From IMG/VR virus record IMGVR_UViG_3300028840_002104, positions 21,819 to 85,818 of that record: a stretch of DNA of 64,000 nt, one strand, 5' to 3'. The notes below the pieces were generated by a model that was not told the DNA's origin, ran no database searches, and saw only the letters and a program-made list of their open reading frames with translations. This DNA is from a virus. Shown in pieces: positions 20,925-49,836 of this stretch. Positions within the stretch are counted from its first letter, which is position 1; the number at the start of each line of letters is the position of its first letter. A program made the position numbers and the translations under genes.

Positions 20925-22766
20925 ATGAATGACCAAACGCTCCAAATGGTATGTCGGGATTTACTGAAAGAGCCAGCATTCGCAATCGACACAGAGACCT
21001 ATGACCCATCAGTTACTCAGAACGCGCTTTCTTTACACAAAGCCAGGATACTGATGGTTTCGATCTGCTTTGGTGACTCTCCGTATAGAACGTATTCCAT
21101 TCCCACGTCGGCGCAGTCGCCGGATTTTCTTCCAACATATGCCGTGGTAAACGCGCTTTCAAAGGTCCTAGAAGATCCTTCTGTGCTGAAAGTTATGTGG
21201 AATGCGAACTATGACGTCAATGTCTTTTTGAACCATGGCGTGAGAACTGTTCGCTACTGTTGTGGAATGGTCATGGCGTGGTGTCTGGATGAGAACAAGC
21301 CAAAAGGTCTGAAAGATCGAAGCGTTGAAGTTCATAGGCATTTGCGGAAGACAAAGAATGTTGACTTTGAGGATACCGACGAACTAGCCATTTATGCTGA
21401 GCAAGACGCTAGAGCCACCTGGGATCTCTACCGTGCTTTTACGAAAGGCCAGATTGAGCTTTCTGAGGTTCCCAAGACAATGGTTTTGTCAGGAGTCAGA
21501 AAGAAGTTCTTTCACGAGCAAGAGATGCCTTTGGTAGATGTTGTGGTTTCCATGGAAAGACGTGGTATCCAGCTTGATGTGGACGGCATTCGCAAGACGG
21601 CCAAGAAGATGGAGAAGCGTCTAGACGATCTTGAGGATAGGATCTACACCGAAGCAGGCCACGACTTCAACATTGGATCTGGCCCACAGCTTGCCGGTGT
21701 TCTCTTTGATGAACTAGACCTCCCTGTCTTGAGGCGGACAAAAAAGACCTCTAGACCTTCTGTGGATAAGATGACGCTCTCTCTTTTGAGAAACCATCAT
21801 CCCATCGTTGACTTTGTTTTGGAGCATTCTGCTGTCAGGAAGCTCTACAGTACCTATGTTTGTCCTGAGAAGGATGGTCTACCCTGCGGTCTTTTGGCTC
21901 ATGCTGATATGGCAGGCGTTATTCATCCTACGATGAACACTGTGGGAGCTGTAACAGGCAGGTTCTCTGGGAGTCAGCCCAATCCTCAGAACATTCCGAA
22001 AGACGCGGATAGAGATGAATGGAAGATAAGGTCTAAGTTTATAGCGCGGCCAGGTCATTCTCTGATAGTCGCGGATAAATCTCAGATTGAGCTTAGGCTG
22101 CTTACGGTTTTCTGTCGTGACCCCTTACTCATGAAGGTTTACCAAGAGGGCGGAGATGTTCACCAAACGACGGCTGACACTTGCCGAGTCATAAGAGACA
22201 AGGCCAAGGCGGTCAACTTTGGTGCTGTCTACGGGCTTCAGGCTCGAAGTTTAGCGGCAAATCTCACGTTCTATGGTACTCCTACTACGGAGGCTGAGGC
22301 TCAAGCTCTCTTGGATAGCTTCTTCAACAAGACCTACAAAAAGATAGACCCTTGGCGTAAGTCTTGGATTAAGCTTCACAATGAGCGGGGTTTTGTTCCT
22401 CTGATTACAGGCAGGCCACGGCGCATTCCTGATCTTTTCTCAAGGAATAGGTTCAAGCGTAGCGTGGCAGAGCGTGAGCTGATTAACAACACTATTCAGG
22501 GAAGTGCAGCAGATCTGATGAAACAGGCCATGCTTCGATGTCATTTTGACAGAGAGCTTCGAGAGCTGGAATGTTTCATGCTTATCCAGGTTCATGATGA
22601 ATTGGTGTTTGAGGTTCCAACCGCGAATGCTGAAAAGGCGGCAAGAAGAGTTCGGGAGTTGATGTGCCAGCTTCCAGATGGCCTCATTTTGCCGATTGAC
22701 ATACCGATTGAAGTTAACGTGGCGATAGGCCCAAACTGGCGAGAAACGGAGAAATTGGCAGCATAG
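20925..22766 (+). CDS. DNA polymerase I (family A) with 3'-5' exonuclease
   Basis: The product is 613 residues from ATG 20925; a TTG nine bases earlier is an alternative. Exonuclease motifs: AIDTETYDP (about residue 20), MWNANYDVNVF, and YAEQDARATWDLY. Polymerase motifs: A = DKSQIELRLL (about 383), B = RDKAKAVNFGAVYG (about 424), C = QVHDELVFE (about 555). The 5' nuclease domain of bacterial PolI is absent, as in many phages. This is the replicative polymerase. Confidence 0.92.
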   Translation: MNDQTLQMVCRDLLKEPAFAIDTETYDPSVTQNALSLHKARILMVSICFGDSPYRTYSIPTSAQSPDFLPTYAVVNALSKVLEDPSVLKVMWNANYDVNVFLNHGVRTVRYCCGMVMAWCLDENKPKGLKDRSVEVHRHLRKTKNVDFEDTDELAIYAEQDARATWDLYRAFTKGQIELSEVPKTMVLSGVRKKFFHEQEMPLVDVVVSMERRGIQLDVDGIRKTAKKMEKRLDDLEDRIYTEAGHDFNIGSGPQLAGVLFDELDLPVLRRTKKTSRPSVDKMTLSLLRNHHPIVDFVLEHSAVRKLYSTYVCPEKDGLPCGLLAHADMAGVIHPTMNTVGAVTGRFSGSQPNPQNIPKDADRDEWKIRSKFIARPGHSLIVADKSQIELRLLTVFCRDPLLMKVYQEGGDVHQTTADTCRVIRDKAKAVNFGAVYGLQARSLAANLTFYGTPTTEAEAQALLDSFFNKTYKKIDPWRKSWIKLHNERGFVPLITGRPRRIPDLFSRNRFKRSVAERELINNTIQGSAADLMKQAMLRCHFDRELRELECFMLIQVHDELVFEVPTANAEKAARRVRELMCQLPDGLILPIDIPIEVNVAIGPNWRETEKLAA

Positions 22767-31765: not shown

Positions 31766-32533
31766 ATGGATGCTAGAATTAGGGCGCTTCTTCTCTTTTC
31801 AGGTGGTCTTGATAGCACAGTAGCCTTGTGGCATATCCTGAAAGACCACGATCTTCGGACAGTCTGTCTTCACTTTACCCACGGGCTGAAACCTACTCAC
31901 CATATCACCGATCTATCCGCAATCATCAATGAAGCCAATGATGAGTTCGGAAGAAACAGTGTCACTCTTGAGGTTGTTCATCTTCCCGACTTTTGGCTAG
32001 GTCTTGAGGACTACCAGCCTGAGTGGAGACTGAAAGCAGCCGAAGGCCCTACCAACAGGGAAATTCTCCACGCTCGAAACCTGGTCTATCTGTCTCTTGC
32101 TGTTCCTTACGCCATCCGTTTTGGGGCCAACAATATTTTCACAGGATTTCTCGCTGGTGTTCCTGTCGTCCCACCTGACGCGACTCTTCAGTTCTCGGAA
32201 ATGGCAGAAAAGGTTATCCACGAAGCGATAGGCGAAACTCTTCTAGAGAACTTTGGCGGCCTGGCCGTCATTTCTCCCATGATAGCTATGGATAAGCTAG
32301 ATGTCTGGAAACACGCAGATCAGTTTGGCATTCTAGGTCTTGTCAAGGATCGTGCGTCTAGTTGCAACGCATTCTTCATCAATGACCCTGATCTCCTTGT
32401 TGCGGAGCATTCTTGGGGATGGGGTTGCGGTAAATGTCAGTCATGCGAAGAAAGGGCGAATTCCTGGGAAGCATTTCAGAAAATCAGAAAGGTCGGAGGC
32501 AAAGGTGAACAGCAGGGAGAGACAGAAGGCTGA
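31766..32533 (+). CDS. queC: QueC, 7-cyano-7-deazaguanine (preQ0) synthase
   Basis: The product is 255 residues; ATG 31766 has GGAGG 7 nt upstream. The PP-loop LLFSGGLDSTVALW (about residue 8) binds ATP. The C-terminal SSCNAF...GWGCGKCQSCEERA supplies the four zinc Cys. QueC converts 7-carboxy-7-deazaguanine to preQ0. In phages this feeds insertion of deazaguanine into DNA; the other steps are encoded next to it and DpdA at 37935. No amidotransferase (Gat) extension is present. Confidence 0.92.
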   Translation: MDARIRALLLFSGGLDSTVALWHILKDHDLRTVCLHFTHGLKPTHHITDLSAIINEANDEFGRNSVTLEVVHLPDFWLGLEDYQPEWRLKAAEGPTNREILHARNLVYLSLAVPYAIRFGANNIFTGFLAGVPVVPPDATLQFSEMAEKVIHEAIGETLLENFGGLAVISPMIAMDKLDVWKHADQFGILGLVKDRASSCNAFFINDPDLLVAEHSWGWGCGKCQSCEERANSWEAFQKIRKVGGKGEQQGETEG

Positions 32534-33104
32534 GAATGCCCTTCGGCGGATGTTCTCAGTTTACCGCGACAAGGACGATATTCCGCACATAGAGTTTAAG
32601 ACGACCAGTACGAAAGACACTCCCGCACGTGTAGTTCGTATGTACGAGGAGTTCTTCTCTGCGGAAGAGCCTGACTTCACAACCTTTTCCGCTGATGTAG
32701 ACACTCTTGTCGTTGTTCGGGATATCGAGTTTGTCTCTGTCTGCGAACATCATCTACTCCCATTCTATGGCCGCGCCCATGTAGGCTACCTGCCAGACGG
32801 GAAAATAGCTGGCTTGTCAAAGTTTGGTCGTGTGGTTGACTTCTTCGCCAAGAGGCCGCAGCTTCAGGAAAGAATGACTGATGAGACTGCGGAGTATCTT
32901 ATGAAGAAGCTCAAGCCACGCGCTCTGTGTGTTTATGTGGAAGCCAAGCATACTTGCATGGCTCTGCGCGGAACAAGAAAGCTCAATTCAACTACGGTTA
33001 CTCATGCAATTCGAGGGAATGAAGAGAAAGTGCGTTTCGAGGTGAAGCGTGAATTTCTCCAGATGCTAAAAGGAGGTCTGAGTAATGGTGGCAACAGTTA
33101 TTAA
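32505..33104 (+). CDS. folE: GTP cyclohydrolase I, FolE
   Basis: The product is 199 residues. GTG 32505 is chosen because GGAGG lies upstream within the end of queC and the FolE core starts soon after. Motifs: SVCEHHLLPFYGRAHVGYLP (zinc Cys and His, about residue 80), GLSKFGRVVDFFAKRPQLQE, and EAKHTCMALRG. It forms dihydroneopterin triphosphate from GTP, the first step of deazaguanine synthesis. It overlaps queC by 29 nt and queD by 20 nt. Confidence 0.92.
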   Translation: MNSRERQKAENALRRMFSVYRDKDDIPHIEFKTTSTKDTPARVVRMYEEFFSAEEPDFTTFSADVDTLVVVRDIEFVSVCEHHLLPFYGRAHVGYLPDGKIAGLSKFGRVVDFFAKRPQLQERMTDETAEYLMKKLKPRALCVYVEAKHTCMALRGTRKLNSTTVTHAIRGNEEKVRFEVKREFLQMLKGGLSNGGNSY

Positions 33105-33564
33105 GCAACTGAAGTCTCTCTCCCTTGCCCACAAGCTCACTTCTCGTAAGGCGGGAAAGTGTTGTCGTCTACACGGGCATAACTACCAAATTACGGTTTT
33201 CTATGAGGACGAGGTTGATGAAGAGACTGGCATGGTTCTGAACTTTAGTGAGTTCGACCTTCTTGAGGAGTTTATTTCTTGGCTTTTTGACCACAGAGCG
33301 GTCAAGAAGGCTACCAGGCACACTAAGGATTACTTGGCTTTTCCTTTTGAGCCTACGGCTGAGATGCTGGCCGCCACTATCGCTTACTCAGCTTTTCTGA
33401 CGCTCAAGCCTTCAGCTCACGGAGCGATTATGGTGCAGGTGTCTGAAACAGACAGGTGCGCTGCCAGATATCGCTTAGCTTTAGGAGGGCTTCCGGAGAA
33501 GCTAGAGGATTGGATTGTAGACATGCTATCTCGTTTTAGAGTAGGGGGAGTGGCACATGAGTGA
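33085..33564 (+). CDS. queD: QueD, 6-carboxytetrahydropterin synthase
   Basis: The product is 159 residues with AAAGGAGG upstream. The PTPS-family residues are visible: LAHKLTSRKAGKCCRLHGHN (His ligand, catalytic Cys, HGHNY), FDHRAV, EPTAEMLA, and SETDRCAARY. It turns dihydroneopterin triphosphate into 6-carboxytetrahydropterin. It is translationally coupled to folE and queE. Confidence 0.92.
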   Translation: MVATVIKQLKSLSLAHKLTSRKAGKCCRLHGHNYQITVFYEDEVDEETGMVLNFSEFDLLEEFISWLFDHRAVKKATRHTKDYLAFPFEPTAEMLAATIAYSAFLTLKPSAHGAIMVQVSETDRCAARYRLALGGLPEKLEDWIVDMLSRFRVGGVAHE

Positions 33565-34195
33565 GCGGCTGAAGATTAACGACATCTTTCTGAGTATTCA
33601 AGGAGAAGGTCAGTATGTGGGGACTCCGATGGTCTTCATCAGATTCGCAGGATGCAATCTTTCCTGTAGCTGGTGTGATACGGACAAGTATGAGCACTAC
33701 TGCATGACAGCGGAGCAGGTCTTTAACTATATCAAGACTCTTTGTAACTATCCTAGTTCTATTCCTGTCTGTCTTACAGGAGGGGAGCCTCTTCTTCAAT
33801 GGGGATTGGCAATGGAAGAGCTTGCCAACAGGCTTATAGAGAAAGGCTCAGGACTTCATCTTGAGACGAACGGTCTTCTGCTCGACGGAGAGATTGGTCT
33901 AGGTGTTTTTGACTATGTTACGGTTAGTCCTAAGCCCCCCTCTTCAGGCTGCGAAACTCTTGACTACTGGGATAGCTTAGCTCTCTCTCGCGCTGATGAG
34001 TTTAAGGTTGTGATAGCAGATCAGGAGGACTACAATTGGGTTGTTCAGAATGCTTGCTGGTTTGTTGATCGTCCCCTTTTTCTCCAGCCTTGTGACGGAA
34101 GGTCTTCTTTCTCTGATCTCTGGGAGATGTGGCAGAAGAACCCTATCCCCTGTCGGATACTTCCTCAAGTCCACAAGCTCGTGGGCGTCAAGTAA
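33557..34195 (+). CDS. queE: QueE, 7-carboxy-7-deazaguanine synthase (radical SAM)
   Basis: The product is 212 residues, overlapping queD by 8 nt. FLSIQGEGQYVGTPMVFIRF leads into the 4Fe-4S motif CNLSCSWCDT (about residue 31). CLTGGEPLLQ is the GGEP SAM-binding motif. It makes 7-carboxy-7-deazaguanine for QueC. It ends the queC-folE-queD-queE run. Confidence 0.92.
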   Translation: MSERLKINDIFLSIQGEGQYVGTPMVFIRFAGCNLSCSWCDTDKYEHYCMTAEQVFNYIKTLCNYPSSIPVCLTGGEPLLQWGLAMEELANRLIEKGSGLHLETNGLLLDGEIGLGVFDYVTVSPKPPSSGCETLDYWDSLALSRADEFKVVIADQEDYNWVVQNACWFVDRPLFLQPCDGRSSFSDLWEMWQKNPIPCRILPQVHKLVGVK

Positions 34196-47101: not shown

Positions 47102-48106
47102 ATGGGGAACTCGGTCTATGACATCGTTTACGAGAGAATAGTCCAGAAACTTGAGGAAGGTGTTGTTCCGTGGCAGAAGCCGTGGGCAGGTTGCAAACCC
47201 CCCGCCAGTTTGGTCAGGAAGACCCCCTACAGGGGAATCAACGTTGTCCTGCTTGCCATGTCTGGCCAGTCGTCGCCTTGGTGGTTGACCTACAAGGATT
47301 GTAGACAGCGCCTGGGTGGGCGGATCAAAGATGGCCAGTACAACAAGTGGTCAATGGTAGTCTTCTGGAAACCTCGCTTGAAGGTCAATGGCAAATGGCT
47401 GAATGATAAGCAGTTTGCCGCCTTCAATCGGTCGTCCATCGGAGATAACGATGAGGTTGAAAGCGTTCCACTACTCAGGTACTACCGAGTTTGGAACCTA
47501 TCTCAGTGTGAGGGTATCCCTGAAGACAAGATCCCTGAAGAGGTAGGCAAAGATGGTGAGCCTCTGGATCTCTGTGAAGAGATCGTTGATGGTATGCCTT
47601 GCCCTCCTGCGATAAAGCTCTCTGATGTAGGTAGAGCTTTCTATCGTGGAGGTATGTTCGATGAGGTGTCCCTTCCACGTCCTCGATACTTTGAGAACAA
47701 GGAAGCTTACTACGTGACCCTCTTTCACGAATTGGCTCATGCAACTGGCCACGAGAAGCGGCTAGCGCGGAAGAAGGCTGCGGCTGATAGTCGATTGGTT
47801 GGCTCCTACAGTCAAGAAGAGCTGGTGGCGGAAATGACTGCCTGCTTTCTCTGCTCTGAAGTGGGCATCGAATCGACCTTTGATAACTCAGCGGCTTACA
47901 TTAGCGGCTGGCTTGAGTCCTTCGACGGAGATAGAAAGATGCTGGTGTTTGCAGGTCATGCGGCACAGAAGGCGGCAGATTGGATTATGAACCGCATTCC
48001 AGATGAAAAGGTTCTTGATCTGATAGGCGGCAAAAGTGCAGGTGTGACAGGGAAAGCGTGCTATACTGAAGATGTAGATAGAGCAGCATTCGCCAATGTC
48101 AATTAA
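47102..48106 (+). CDS. ArdC-type antirestriction protein (ssDNA-binding plus zincin-like)
   Basis: The product is 334 residues with GAGGAGG upstream. The N-terminal domain (VYERIVQKLEEGVVPWQKPW, then YRGINVVLL and WLTYKDC) is the ArdC N-terminal ssDNA-binding fold. The C-terminal zincin-like domain has YYVTLFHELAHATGHEKRL (HExxH, about residue 210) and YSQEELVAEM with the third ligand Glu. ArdC proteins protect incoming DNA from restriction. It has its own promoter. Confidence 0.82.
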   Translation: MGNSVYDIVYERIVQKLEEGVVPWQKPWAGCKPPASLVRKTPYRGINVVLLAMSGQSSPWWLTYKDCRQRLGGRIKDGQYNKWSMVVFWKPRLKVNGKWLNDKQFAAFNRSSIGDNDEVESVPLLRYYRVWNLSQCEGIPEDKIPEEVGKDGEPLDLCEEIVDGMPCPPAIKLSDVGRAFYRGGMFDEVSLPRPRYFENKEAYYVTLFHELAHATGHEKRLARKKAAADSRLVGSYSQEELVAEMTACFLCSEVGIESTFDNSAAYISGWLESFDGDRKMLVFAGHAAQKAADWIMNRIPDEKVLDLIGGKSAGVTGKACYTEDVDRAAFANVN

Positions 48107-48127: not shown

Positions 48128-49172
48128 CGAAAGCCATCAATCTGTTATGCCAACACTTGCTGCTCTATTTAGACGGGATTGGCGGCCTGAACGGTGACTC
48201 TCTTGGTTGGTCTGAGGTTGGGCAGTTTCTATCGAGTGACCCCTTTGGCAGGATACCTCGCCCAGGCACTGCCCAATCTCGACCATTTGAAAGGAGTGTC
48301 AGACGATGGAGCCTTCCTTTTCTGGCCATGGTCTTGACGGTTTGACTCCTGATCCTTTTAAGCTGTCAGACGATACAGTCAGAGCCTATTGGTATCTTCG
48401 GGACGAACTTCTGAAAGAGTCCCAGGTTGACCTCGCCTGCGATTGCCAACGGAGCCTCGGCTACGTTCTCCTCTTCGCCCAAAAAACTGTCTGGGCCTTT
48501 CGTGCATACGACCGCCTTCGGATGATGGGCTTTGAGTATGCCGACTATCTGAGCGCCGGTGACGGCTATCTTGGCATGGGCCAGGTTTGTCTAGCCAAGG
48601 GAGATCATCAAGGCGGAGTGAATGCGATTGAATCAGCTCTTCAGATGTACTCTAAGGCCAAGGCTGTTCACAGAGCGGGAGTTGCCAATCTCCTGCTAGC
48701 ATCCTTCTTCTGCGAGATAGGCAAGCACAAAGACCTGGGGATAAAAAGTCTCTTCATGGCCACATCCATTCTTGAGGCAGCACAAGATTCGTGCCGTCTT
48801 GTTGTGGCCAAGCAGTTGATAGCGGAACTGAAAGACGAGGAGCCCGCATGTCCTTGCCCTATAACGCTCAAAGAGTTTGACCTCTCGGACAGAGAGCGTG
48901 GGCTTTGGTCGGCATGGTCGCTTCCCGTTTTGCCTGTGGCCACGTTCTATGCTCAAGAAGCAGGTAATACCGTGGTCAGAAGGATTTCCATCCAGCCATG
49001 TCGAATGATCTATGTAAATGATTATGGCGATATCGCGGATGTTCGAGTGATTGGCGGCTATCCAGAAGTAGAGATCAAATCGTGCGAAATCTCTACCGCA
49101 GAAGGCAAAGGTCGGAAAGCAGTGCTTGGCGACACTGCGTTTAAGCTAATTGGTGAAGGTTGATGGCTTTCG
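48128..49172 (+). repeat. Inverted repeat enclosing the 48306 gene
   Basis: Left arm 48128-48143 and right arm 49157-49172 are complementary over 16 nt with one wobble. The right arm overlaps the stop codon of the enclosed gene. Inside, 48208-48226 and 48268-48285 form another 18-bp stem with one bulged T and one wobble. The stretch 48107-48305 between ardC and this gene shows no convincing ORF. Confidence 0.65.
48306..49163 (+). CDS. TPR-like helical protein of unknown function
   Basis: The product is 285 residues with AAGGAG upstream. Residues of about 20-190 are paired helices with TPR-like spacing (SLGYVLLFAQKTVWAFRAYD, GMGQVCLAKGDHQGGVNAIE, ANLLLASFFCEIGKHKDLGI). The C-terminal 90 residues are beta-rich (KEFDLSDRERGLW, RRISIQPCRMIYVND). 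A protein-binding role is likely. Stems flank the gene. Confidence 0.5.
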   Translation: MEPSFSGHGLDGLTPDPFKLSDDTVRAYWYLRDELLKESQVDLACDCQRSLGYVLLFAQKTVWAFRAYDRLRMMGFEYADYLSAGDGYLGMGQVCLAKGDHQGGVNAIESALQMYSKAKAVHRAGVANLLLASFFCEIGKHKDLGIKSLFMATSILEAAQDSCRLVVAKQLIAELKDEEPACPCPITLKEFDLSDRERGLWSAWSLPVLPVATFYAQEAGNTVVRRISIQPCRMIYVNDYGDIADVRVIGGYPEVEIKSCEISTAEGKGRKAVLGDTAFKLIGEG

Positions 49173-49178
49173 TGTGCC

Positions 49179-49343
49179 ATGGTTAGAAAATGTGGACAGA
49201 AGATGGAAGTGTTCAGTAGAGTCGTAGGCTATCACCGCCCAGTATCTCATTGGAACCCAGGCAAGCAAGAAGAGTTCGGAAATCGCAAGCCGTACAAGGT
49301 TGATGAGGCTCAATTTAGAAAGGAGCCCGAAGCGAAAGGATGA
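49179..49343 (+). CDS. Stand-alone glycyl-radical segment of anaerobic ribonucleotide reductase (NrdD-like)
   Basis: The product is 54 residues. MEVFSRVVGYHRPVSHWNPG followed by KQEEFGNRK matches the C-terminal part of NrdD-type reductases, in which the Gly of RVxGY carries the radical. The rest of NrdD is absent from this window. The start ATG has no SD, and the upstream frame is closed by a TGA at 49161, so it is not the remnant of an adjacent gene here. It may act as a spare part or be a relic. Confidence 0.55.
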   Translation: MVRKCGQKMEVFSRVVGYHRPVSHWNPGKQEEFGNRKPYKVDEAQFRKEPEAKG

Positions 49344-49347
49344 AAGC

Positions 49348-49836
49348 ATGGCCTATTTGAGTATGAAAGGCAAGTCCATTTGCGAGATGTGCGAAGACTG
49401 GGAAGGTCTTGGCCAGTATGATGACTGTGATGGTGACTGCTCCAAGAAGGTCTTTGGTGGCCGCTTTGTGTTGATAGATGTCCACGAGTTTGTGGATCTT
49501 CTCAAGGCGCGGTCAAAGGTAGAGATAGACGCTCTGAGAGAGAAGCTTGCTGTTACGGAGAGGGCTCTCAAGGCGCGGCTGCAAGACGTCAGAAACCTTG
49601 AGAAGAGGTACGACGAGATTGTCAAGGAGAGAGACGGTCTCGAAGAGCAGGCTAAGCATTTACTGCGGCAGGTTGAAGACCCAGGCGGTCCTCTCCAGGA
49701 GCTTAGGTGTCCTCATTGTGGAATGTTTTCTTTTGCTGAGAGAGAGGCTGTCGCAGGCGCTCGGAGACTGCCTAACTATTGTTGTTGGTGTTCCAGATGC
49801 GTGGACGAGAAACTAGAGACGGAGCTTTCAACATGA
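49348..49836 (+). CDS. Coiled-coil protein with zinc sites at both ends
   Basis: The product is 162 residues from ATG 49348 with a GAAAGGATGAA SD region. N-terminal CEMCEDW and DGDC, a central coiled coil (EIDALREKLAVTERALKARL), and C-terminal CPHCGMF and CCWCSRC give at least two probable metal sites. It may be a nucleic-acid-binding scaffold. Confidence 0.55.
   Translation: MAYLSMKGKSICEMCEDWEGLGQYDDCDGDCSKKVFGGRFVLIDVHEFVDLLKARSKVEIDALREKLAVTERALKARLQDVRNLEKRYDEIVKERDGLEEQAKHLLRQVEDPGGPLQELRCPHCGMFSFAEREAVAGARRLPNYCCWCSRCVDEKLETELST

Follow-up and report, generated by a model that had tools for sequence, protein, structure and literature searches.

A free-standing glycyl-radical tail of anaerobic ribonucleotide reductase in a phage, a probable counterpart of the small subunit of split bacterial NrdD

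What use could a phage make of the last few dozen residues of an enzyme whose remainder it does not seem to encode? The question is raised by a short open reading frame (ORF) in a viral record of 85,818 bases, maybe itself a fragment, of which positions 21819 to 85818 make up the 64,000 nucleotides hereafter called the window. An initial annotation, made from the letters alone, had taken this ORF for a stand-alone glycyl-radical tail of the anaerobic (class III) ribonucleotide reductase (RNR) NrdD. It regarded the tail either as a piece that restores an oxygen-cleaved host enzyme, in the manner of the YfiD spare part of pyruvate formate-lyase (PFL), or as a relic, and suggested a profile search against NrdD and a survey of phages for isolated copies. 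We arrive at a different reading, to which we assign a probability of roughly two in three: the ORF would encode, as a phage copy, the small subunit that carries the radical in a split host class III RNR.

The tail ORF and its surroundings are listed in Table 1. A Shine-Dalgarno site is missing ahead of its ATG, as the initial annotation had correctly cautioned; yet the ORF is tightly packed between two genes of the same strand and fills the gap between them, such that coupling of its translation to the upstream gene is plausible. The phage record also encodes a family A polymerase, RecA, ArdC and a FolE/QueD/QueE/QueC set. Judged from gene content, the latter set suggests DNA modification by this phage. 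The similarity of a 416-aa protein to a queuine tRNA-ribosyltransferase family possibly reflects a shared domain only.

Table 1. The tail ORF, two of its codons and nearby features, in window coordinates.
Feature	Position	Strand	Basis or remark
Free-standing NrdD glycyl-radical tail, 54 aa, MVRKCGQKMEVFSRVVGYHRPVSHWNPGKQEEFGNRKPYKVDEAQFRKEPEAKG	49179..49343	+	ORF (ATG at 49179, TGA at 49341-49343), Pfam/NCBIfam matches, family alignments
Codon of Gly17, presumed radical glycine	49227..49229	+	Equivalent to Gly621 of Thermotoga maritima NrdD (tmNrdD); invariant in all aligned free tails
Codon of Cys5, equivalent of the fourth zinc ligand	49191..49193	+	Aligns with the last Cys of the tmNrdD zinc motif
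Upstream gene, 285 aa, no family match	48306..49163	+	Stop 15 nt before tail start
Downstream gene, 162 aa, coiled-coil-like, no confident family	49348..49836	+	Start 4 nt after tail stop
ArdC-type anti-restriction protein, two genes upstream of the tail	47102-48106		ArdcN and zincin-like metallopeptidase domains
Four 7-deazaguanine (queuosine/PreQ0) genes	31766-34195		QueC, FolE, QueD (PTPS), radical SAM QueE-like
416-aa protein	51335-52585		Residues 193-315 match a PHROG annotated queuine tRNA-ribosyltransferase, 5.9e-7

The suggested profile search places the window tail on the radical end of NrdD only (PF13597 NRDD, profile positions 526-562 of 562, E=2.1e-10, 40.3 bits at a cut-off of 26.2), a match far above what chance would be expected to yield for such a sequence. 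The C-termini of the NCBIfam NrdD models PRK08579 and TIGR02487 are matched as well, and the domain identity claimed in the initial annotation is thereby borne out. Homology to the Gly_radical domain of PFL is absent, NRDD being the only match in Pfam and NrdD models the only ones in NCBIfam; unlike GrcA/YfiD, the tail is homologous to NrdD and not a member of GrcA. In a profile of the free-tail family, its Gly17 aligns with Gly621, the known radical glycine of T. maritima NrdD, an enzyme whose zinc motif has been described too (PMC4493059). With the NrdD proteins of T. maritima, Prevotella copri and phage T4 it shares the C-terminal glycyl-radical domain, including the counterparts of the radical glycine and of the last zinc ligand. 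It differs from them in being a separate polypeptide without barrel, finger loop and ATP-cone, and of the four zinc ligands only the equivalent of the last one, Cys5, is present.

Modelled by AlphaFold on its own, the window tail (pLDDT 75.5) is predicted to form two short strands flanking Gly17, plus a helix. Compared with the PDB, this model gave no significant match (YfiD, 6owr, reached a non-significant E=3.1). Querying the solved structures with the window tail as a single sequence likewise gave no match, whereas the family profile did match. The lack of enzyme body and activase, which the initial annotation had noted for the window, extends to the entire 85.8-kb record: its 85,818 bases, possibly fragmentary, contain neither a second NrdD match (PF13597; barrel with finger loop and substrate site), nor the activase NrdG, nor a large subunit of class I/II RNR.

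The suggested survey showed that stand-alone tails recur among viruses. Two scans of IMG/VR were carried out, the larger of which yielded 284 relatives. Among the best 80 of these, which were kept, the reading frames reveal 72 short stand-alone tails, two of them starting at a contig edge, and eight ends of full-length NrdD, a ratio not to be read as a prevalence because the query favours free tails. When 32 tail-bearing viral records were searched as a whole, the tail was the sole NrdD match in each, with two tails in two of the records; an NrdD body was found in none, nor was NrdG or PF02867, the other large RNR subunit.

Twelve positions are invariant across eleven divergent tails, including Ser13-Arg14, Gly17, Arg20-Pro21, Trp25 and Gly28-Lys29, and the window copy keeps all twelve. 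Close pairs of phage tails show a dN/dS of 0.070, with 30.8 synonymous versus 10.2 nonsynonymous changes (binomial P 1.5e-14 under neutrality; six informative pairs with 164 synonymous and 676 nonsynonymous sites, two more pairs being identical), a figure for pairs of the family that leaves out the window tail, which has no close homolog. Pairs of tails from bacterial contigs give 0.050. These substitution patterns point to strong purifying selection on the free-tail family.

The surroundings of the viral tails are recurrent as well. An AAA_24 ATPase lies just upstream at 16 loci, and an SF2 helicase (14 loci), DUF669 (13), a DUF3799 nuclease (12) and RusA (10) are found repeatedly; by their annotation, these neighbors represent a replication/recombination module. 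Another set of tails adjoins a small lipoprotein gene. Since these settings differ from each other and from the non-phage genes that lie beside several tails in Thermoguttaceae, the tail has moved more than once. At L030, L100, L128 and L131 the tail ORF reads in frame into a lipoprotein-like ORF with a hydrophobic stretch and a lipobox; the two are either fused or overlap in the same frame.

Several individual viral loci deserve mention on their own account. ANMV-1 infects an uncultured archaeon, and its free tail lies within a 144-aa CDS (L017 3686-4120). This tail and those of L009, L013, L058, L087 and L095 carry an N-terminal CxxC...CxxC extension of their own, which resembles a zinc ribbon and, judged from its cysteine pattern, would make up for the missing zinc ligands in another way. 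The full-length NrdD frame of L018 (MT835493.1) extends into a C-terminal glutaredoxin-like stretch, FTTKTCPNCKMAK. In the free tail at L012 5001-5120 the conserved Trp codon is replaced by an in-frame TAG; a recoded stop was considered and rejected, as a single TGG->TAG change in a single copy looks like a pseudogene or a sequencing error.

The main surprise of our analysis came from bacteria and had been overlooked in the initial annotation: many bacterial genomes encode NrdD as a body and a separate tail. A scan of one genome per species, together with whole-genome searches, revealed that in many genomes positions 1-525 of the NRDD profile map to one ORF and positions 526-562 to a separate small ORF just downstream. 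The roughly 30 split genomes belong to Lentisphaerota/Victivallales, Thermoguttaceae, FCPU426 and Margulisbacteria, and include the complete chromosome of strain zth2 as well as Victivallis vadensis DSM 14823. We found no earlier description of a split NrdD or of an NrdD spare part, subscription journals being largely outside this search.

Operon tail genes comprise 45-60 residues, and their ATG follows the stop of the body gene after 21-422 nt, mostly with a Shine-Dalgarno site. The body ends in ...FSICPVHGYIPGEHxxCPLE...stop, while the tail starts with M-(A/S)-K-C-G-x-K-T-E-V-Y-S-R-V-C-G-Y-F-R-P. The split point thus falls within the second Cys pair of the zinc site and leaves three ligands on the body and the fourth on the tail. 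At many of these loci nrdG comes next, giving the order nrdD body, tail, nrdG, and a body alignment confirms that the conserved residues of the barrel are retained. Two further types of split were observed, one in which the zinc site stays on the body (L210-L216), and one in which body and tail overlap (ATGA) and the tail has an N-terminal extension (L232, L233). Neither an intron or intein nor an assembly error accounts for this gene structure: the gaps are variable and mostly hold a Shine-Dalgarno site and an ATG, and the split is found in dozens of assemblies, among them a complete chromosome (L134) and V. vadensis (L143).

Some split loci show peculiarities. Two different tandem tail genes follow one nrdD body at L124, L140 and L142. 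The archaeal MAG locus L227 is also split; its genome, the Aenigmatarchaeota MAG G046, has NrdD broken over several loci (L170, L197, L227), and a radical SAM ORF comes after its split tail gene. Thermoguttaceae furthermore have conserved solitary tails with a Cys-rich end (L116, L119, L120, L121), near a flavoprotein gene in L119-L121 and in a setting that is not phage-like; these are possible cellular spare copies.

The domain boundary of the window tail coincides with that of the operon subunit. Its start, M-x-x-K-C-G, is the operon-subunit boundary, and it aligns without gaps to the whole V. vadensis operon tail, K-C-G start included (63% identity over 41 residues). Along this line, the phage tail L008 shares a KGTPCE-type helical N-extension with the operon tail L232 (E=3e-21). 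At several positions phage tails differ from operon tails, while the radical Gly, the adjacent Tyr and the GK-EEF stretch are present in phage tails as in catalytic tails. An operon position is seen only in hosts, the window tail having no adjoining nrdD body or nrdG.

We compared the occurrence of extra solitary tails with the state of NrdD in sampled genomes. Among genomes drawn evenly from the phylum of G032, solitary tails occur in all seven type-A split genomes and in none of 28 other NrdD genomes (Fisher 1.5e-7), an association that is inflated by shared ancestry and rests largely on one clade. Three of the seven split genomes were already known from the tail scan; the four newly drawn ones alone give 4/4 versus 0/28 (1 in 35,960). 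In samples of the phyla of G035 (Planctomycetota) and G144 (a Desulfobacteraceae MAG), the split genome G035 has solitary tails, the split genome G174 has none, and G139, a planctomycetotal genome with fused NrdD, shows a weak solitary match (E 1.3e-4). Across these genome samples, solitary tails appear to go with split NrdD and almost never with fused NrdD.

A tree of the 38-residue cores gives little resolution, with free, operon and fused tails mixed, and the window tail has no supported neighbor that would point to its donor. Neither the upstream gene nor the family A DNA polymerase led to a close sister phage, or to a host, when their relatives were searched for, and the RecA of the window, though matching many phages, does so at below 60% identity and is of no use for assigning a host.

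To place an operon tail on its body, we modelled the V. vadensis body, the intergenic linker and the tail as one chain with AlphaFold2, reading through the TAG (L143:5931-8123); the model was guided by an alignment with fused homologs, and comprises the operon tail and not the phage tail. It reached a pLDDT of 82.9 and a pTM of 0.76, with an unstructured linker (<50) and a tail at about 70-80. Superposition covers 547 residues of 4u3e (model residues 97-731, tail included; Z 33.7, 3.1 Å), and the agreement with 8p2s is similar (Z 36.0, 2.8 Å). The operon tail is thus predicted to be placed as in solved NrdD, which is compatible with assembly of the two parts and is not proof of it. The glycyl-radical domain of P. 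copri NrdD shifts as one piece, and inhibition by dATP leaves it disordered (PMC11226230), a behavior that fits a detachable part.

The same small tail occurs in phages and, in bacteria, beside the body it belongs to, and we conclude that phages probably furnish the enzyme of their host with a radical subunit that plugs into it. The glycyl radical on Gly17 of the free tail would be put in place by host NrdG, and the activated tail would reach with its loop into the open barrel of a host NrdD body, its single Cys completing the zinc site that the body leaves unfinished. Once docked, the tail would relay its radical to the finger loop so that NTPs can be reduced, and a damaged tail could be swapped for a fresh one. 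Because it is the tail that is lost through oxygen or turnover, an extra, replaceable phage copy may be useful to the phage by keeping host dNTP synthesis going during its replication; the host of this particular phage would accordingly be expected to carry a split NrdD.

Related arrangements are known. Validated autonomous glycyl radical cofactors are confined to YfiD/GrcA of Escherichia coli and Y06I of phage T4, which both serve PFL, and the authors of that work considered spare parts for other glycyl-radical enzymes possible (PMC8683613). The NrdD tail resembles them as a small free glycyl-radical protein with a phage example (PMC8683613, PMC12338860). As in YfiD/GrcA and Y06I, where the activase of the parent enzyme installs the radical and the protein acts in trans, the same may by analogy hold for the NrdD tail. 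NrdD tails are shorter, however (about 45-60 residues versus 127 in YfiD/Y06I), and in hosts exist also as the regular operon subunit besides a spare. A catalytic RNR chain in two genes with a separate C-terminal part is known from the Pseudomonas aeruginosa class II enzyme NrdJa/NrdJb (PMC4520616, as cited in PMC9669993); it is B12-dependent, unlike NrdD, and its separate chain has no glycyl radical. Introns, inteins or homing endonucleases likewise leave some phage nrdD genes in pieces (PMC3653736), but there both pieces are present and close together, whereas here the tail is alone, with its own start, and in many different phages.

Several other explanations have to be weighed against subunit supply. 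The main rival, which we regard as unlikely, takes the free tail for a spare part that replaces the lost C-terminal fragment of an oxygen-cleaved, fused host NrdD. Both rely on the same chemistry, and the tail has the chemistry and the size class of YfiD/Y06I, for which extension to other enzymes was explicitly allowed (PMC8683613); the window tail is up to 65% identical to tails of fused phage NrdD, and the weak solitary match in G139 comes from a fused genome. Subunit supply or replacement is nevertheless ranked higher because split nrdD exists in bacteria, because the start of the window tail fits the operon subunit, and because solitary tails follow split, not fused, NrdD in the genome samples. 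Thus, of the YfiD-like proposal in the initial annotation, action in trans stands as the most likely mode, while its target gives way, split NrdD being better supported than cleaved fused NrdD. A tail that competes for NrdG or for the barrel, and so switches host RNR on or off, or that evades dATP inhibition, would be a regulator; the allosteric signal of P. copri NrdD indeed works through the glycyl-radical domain (dATP; PMC11226230), and phage tails depart from operon tails at the positions mentioned. The conserved radical Gly, Tyr and GK-EEF speak against this, since a pure decoy has no need of the glycine, and phages need dNTPs; we hold such a role to be quite improbable.

That the tail is a relic of a full-length phage nrdD might be read from its shortness, the missing Shine-Dalgarno site, the lack of a body gene in the record and the TAG-bearing relative L012. 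About 70 stand-alone copies, the selection on the family (dN/dS ~0.07), the full set of invariant residues in the window copy and an intact ORF fitted between two genes all contradict decay; for the family a relic is ruled out, and this second proposal of the initial annotation is disfavoured as very improbable. The least probable explanation, hardly to be expected at all, is that the phage owns a split NrdD whose body gene lies beyond the sequenced record; the record may be fragmentary, but none of the 32 other tail-bearing viral records holds a body either.

For the RNR family, these observations account for very short phage and archaeal-virus genes annotated as 'anaerobic ribonucleoside triphosphate reductase', such as that of ANMV-1. 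Short tails of this kind would have escaped a family-wide RNR phylogeny, because proteins below 400 residues were dropped from it (PMC9531940). The existence of autonomous cofactors beyond PFL, a question raised in PMC8683613, becomes directly testable, and a naturally split class III RNR offers biochemists a system of two parts, of which the oxygen-labile one that bears the radical is freely exchangeable. In its widest form the conclusion is tentative, and we would put it at somewhat less than an even chance: class III RNR would be modular in several phyla, with the radical on an exchangeable subunit of ~45-60 residues that phages swap into the host enzyme. If this is true, the phage tail ranks among the smallest known metabolic genes, and one tiny phage protein would control host dNTP synthesis, perhaps altering oxygen tolerance or dATP feedback.
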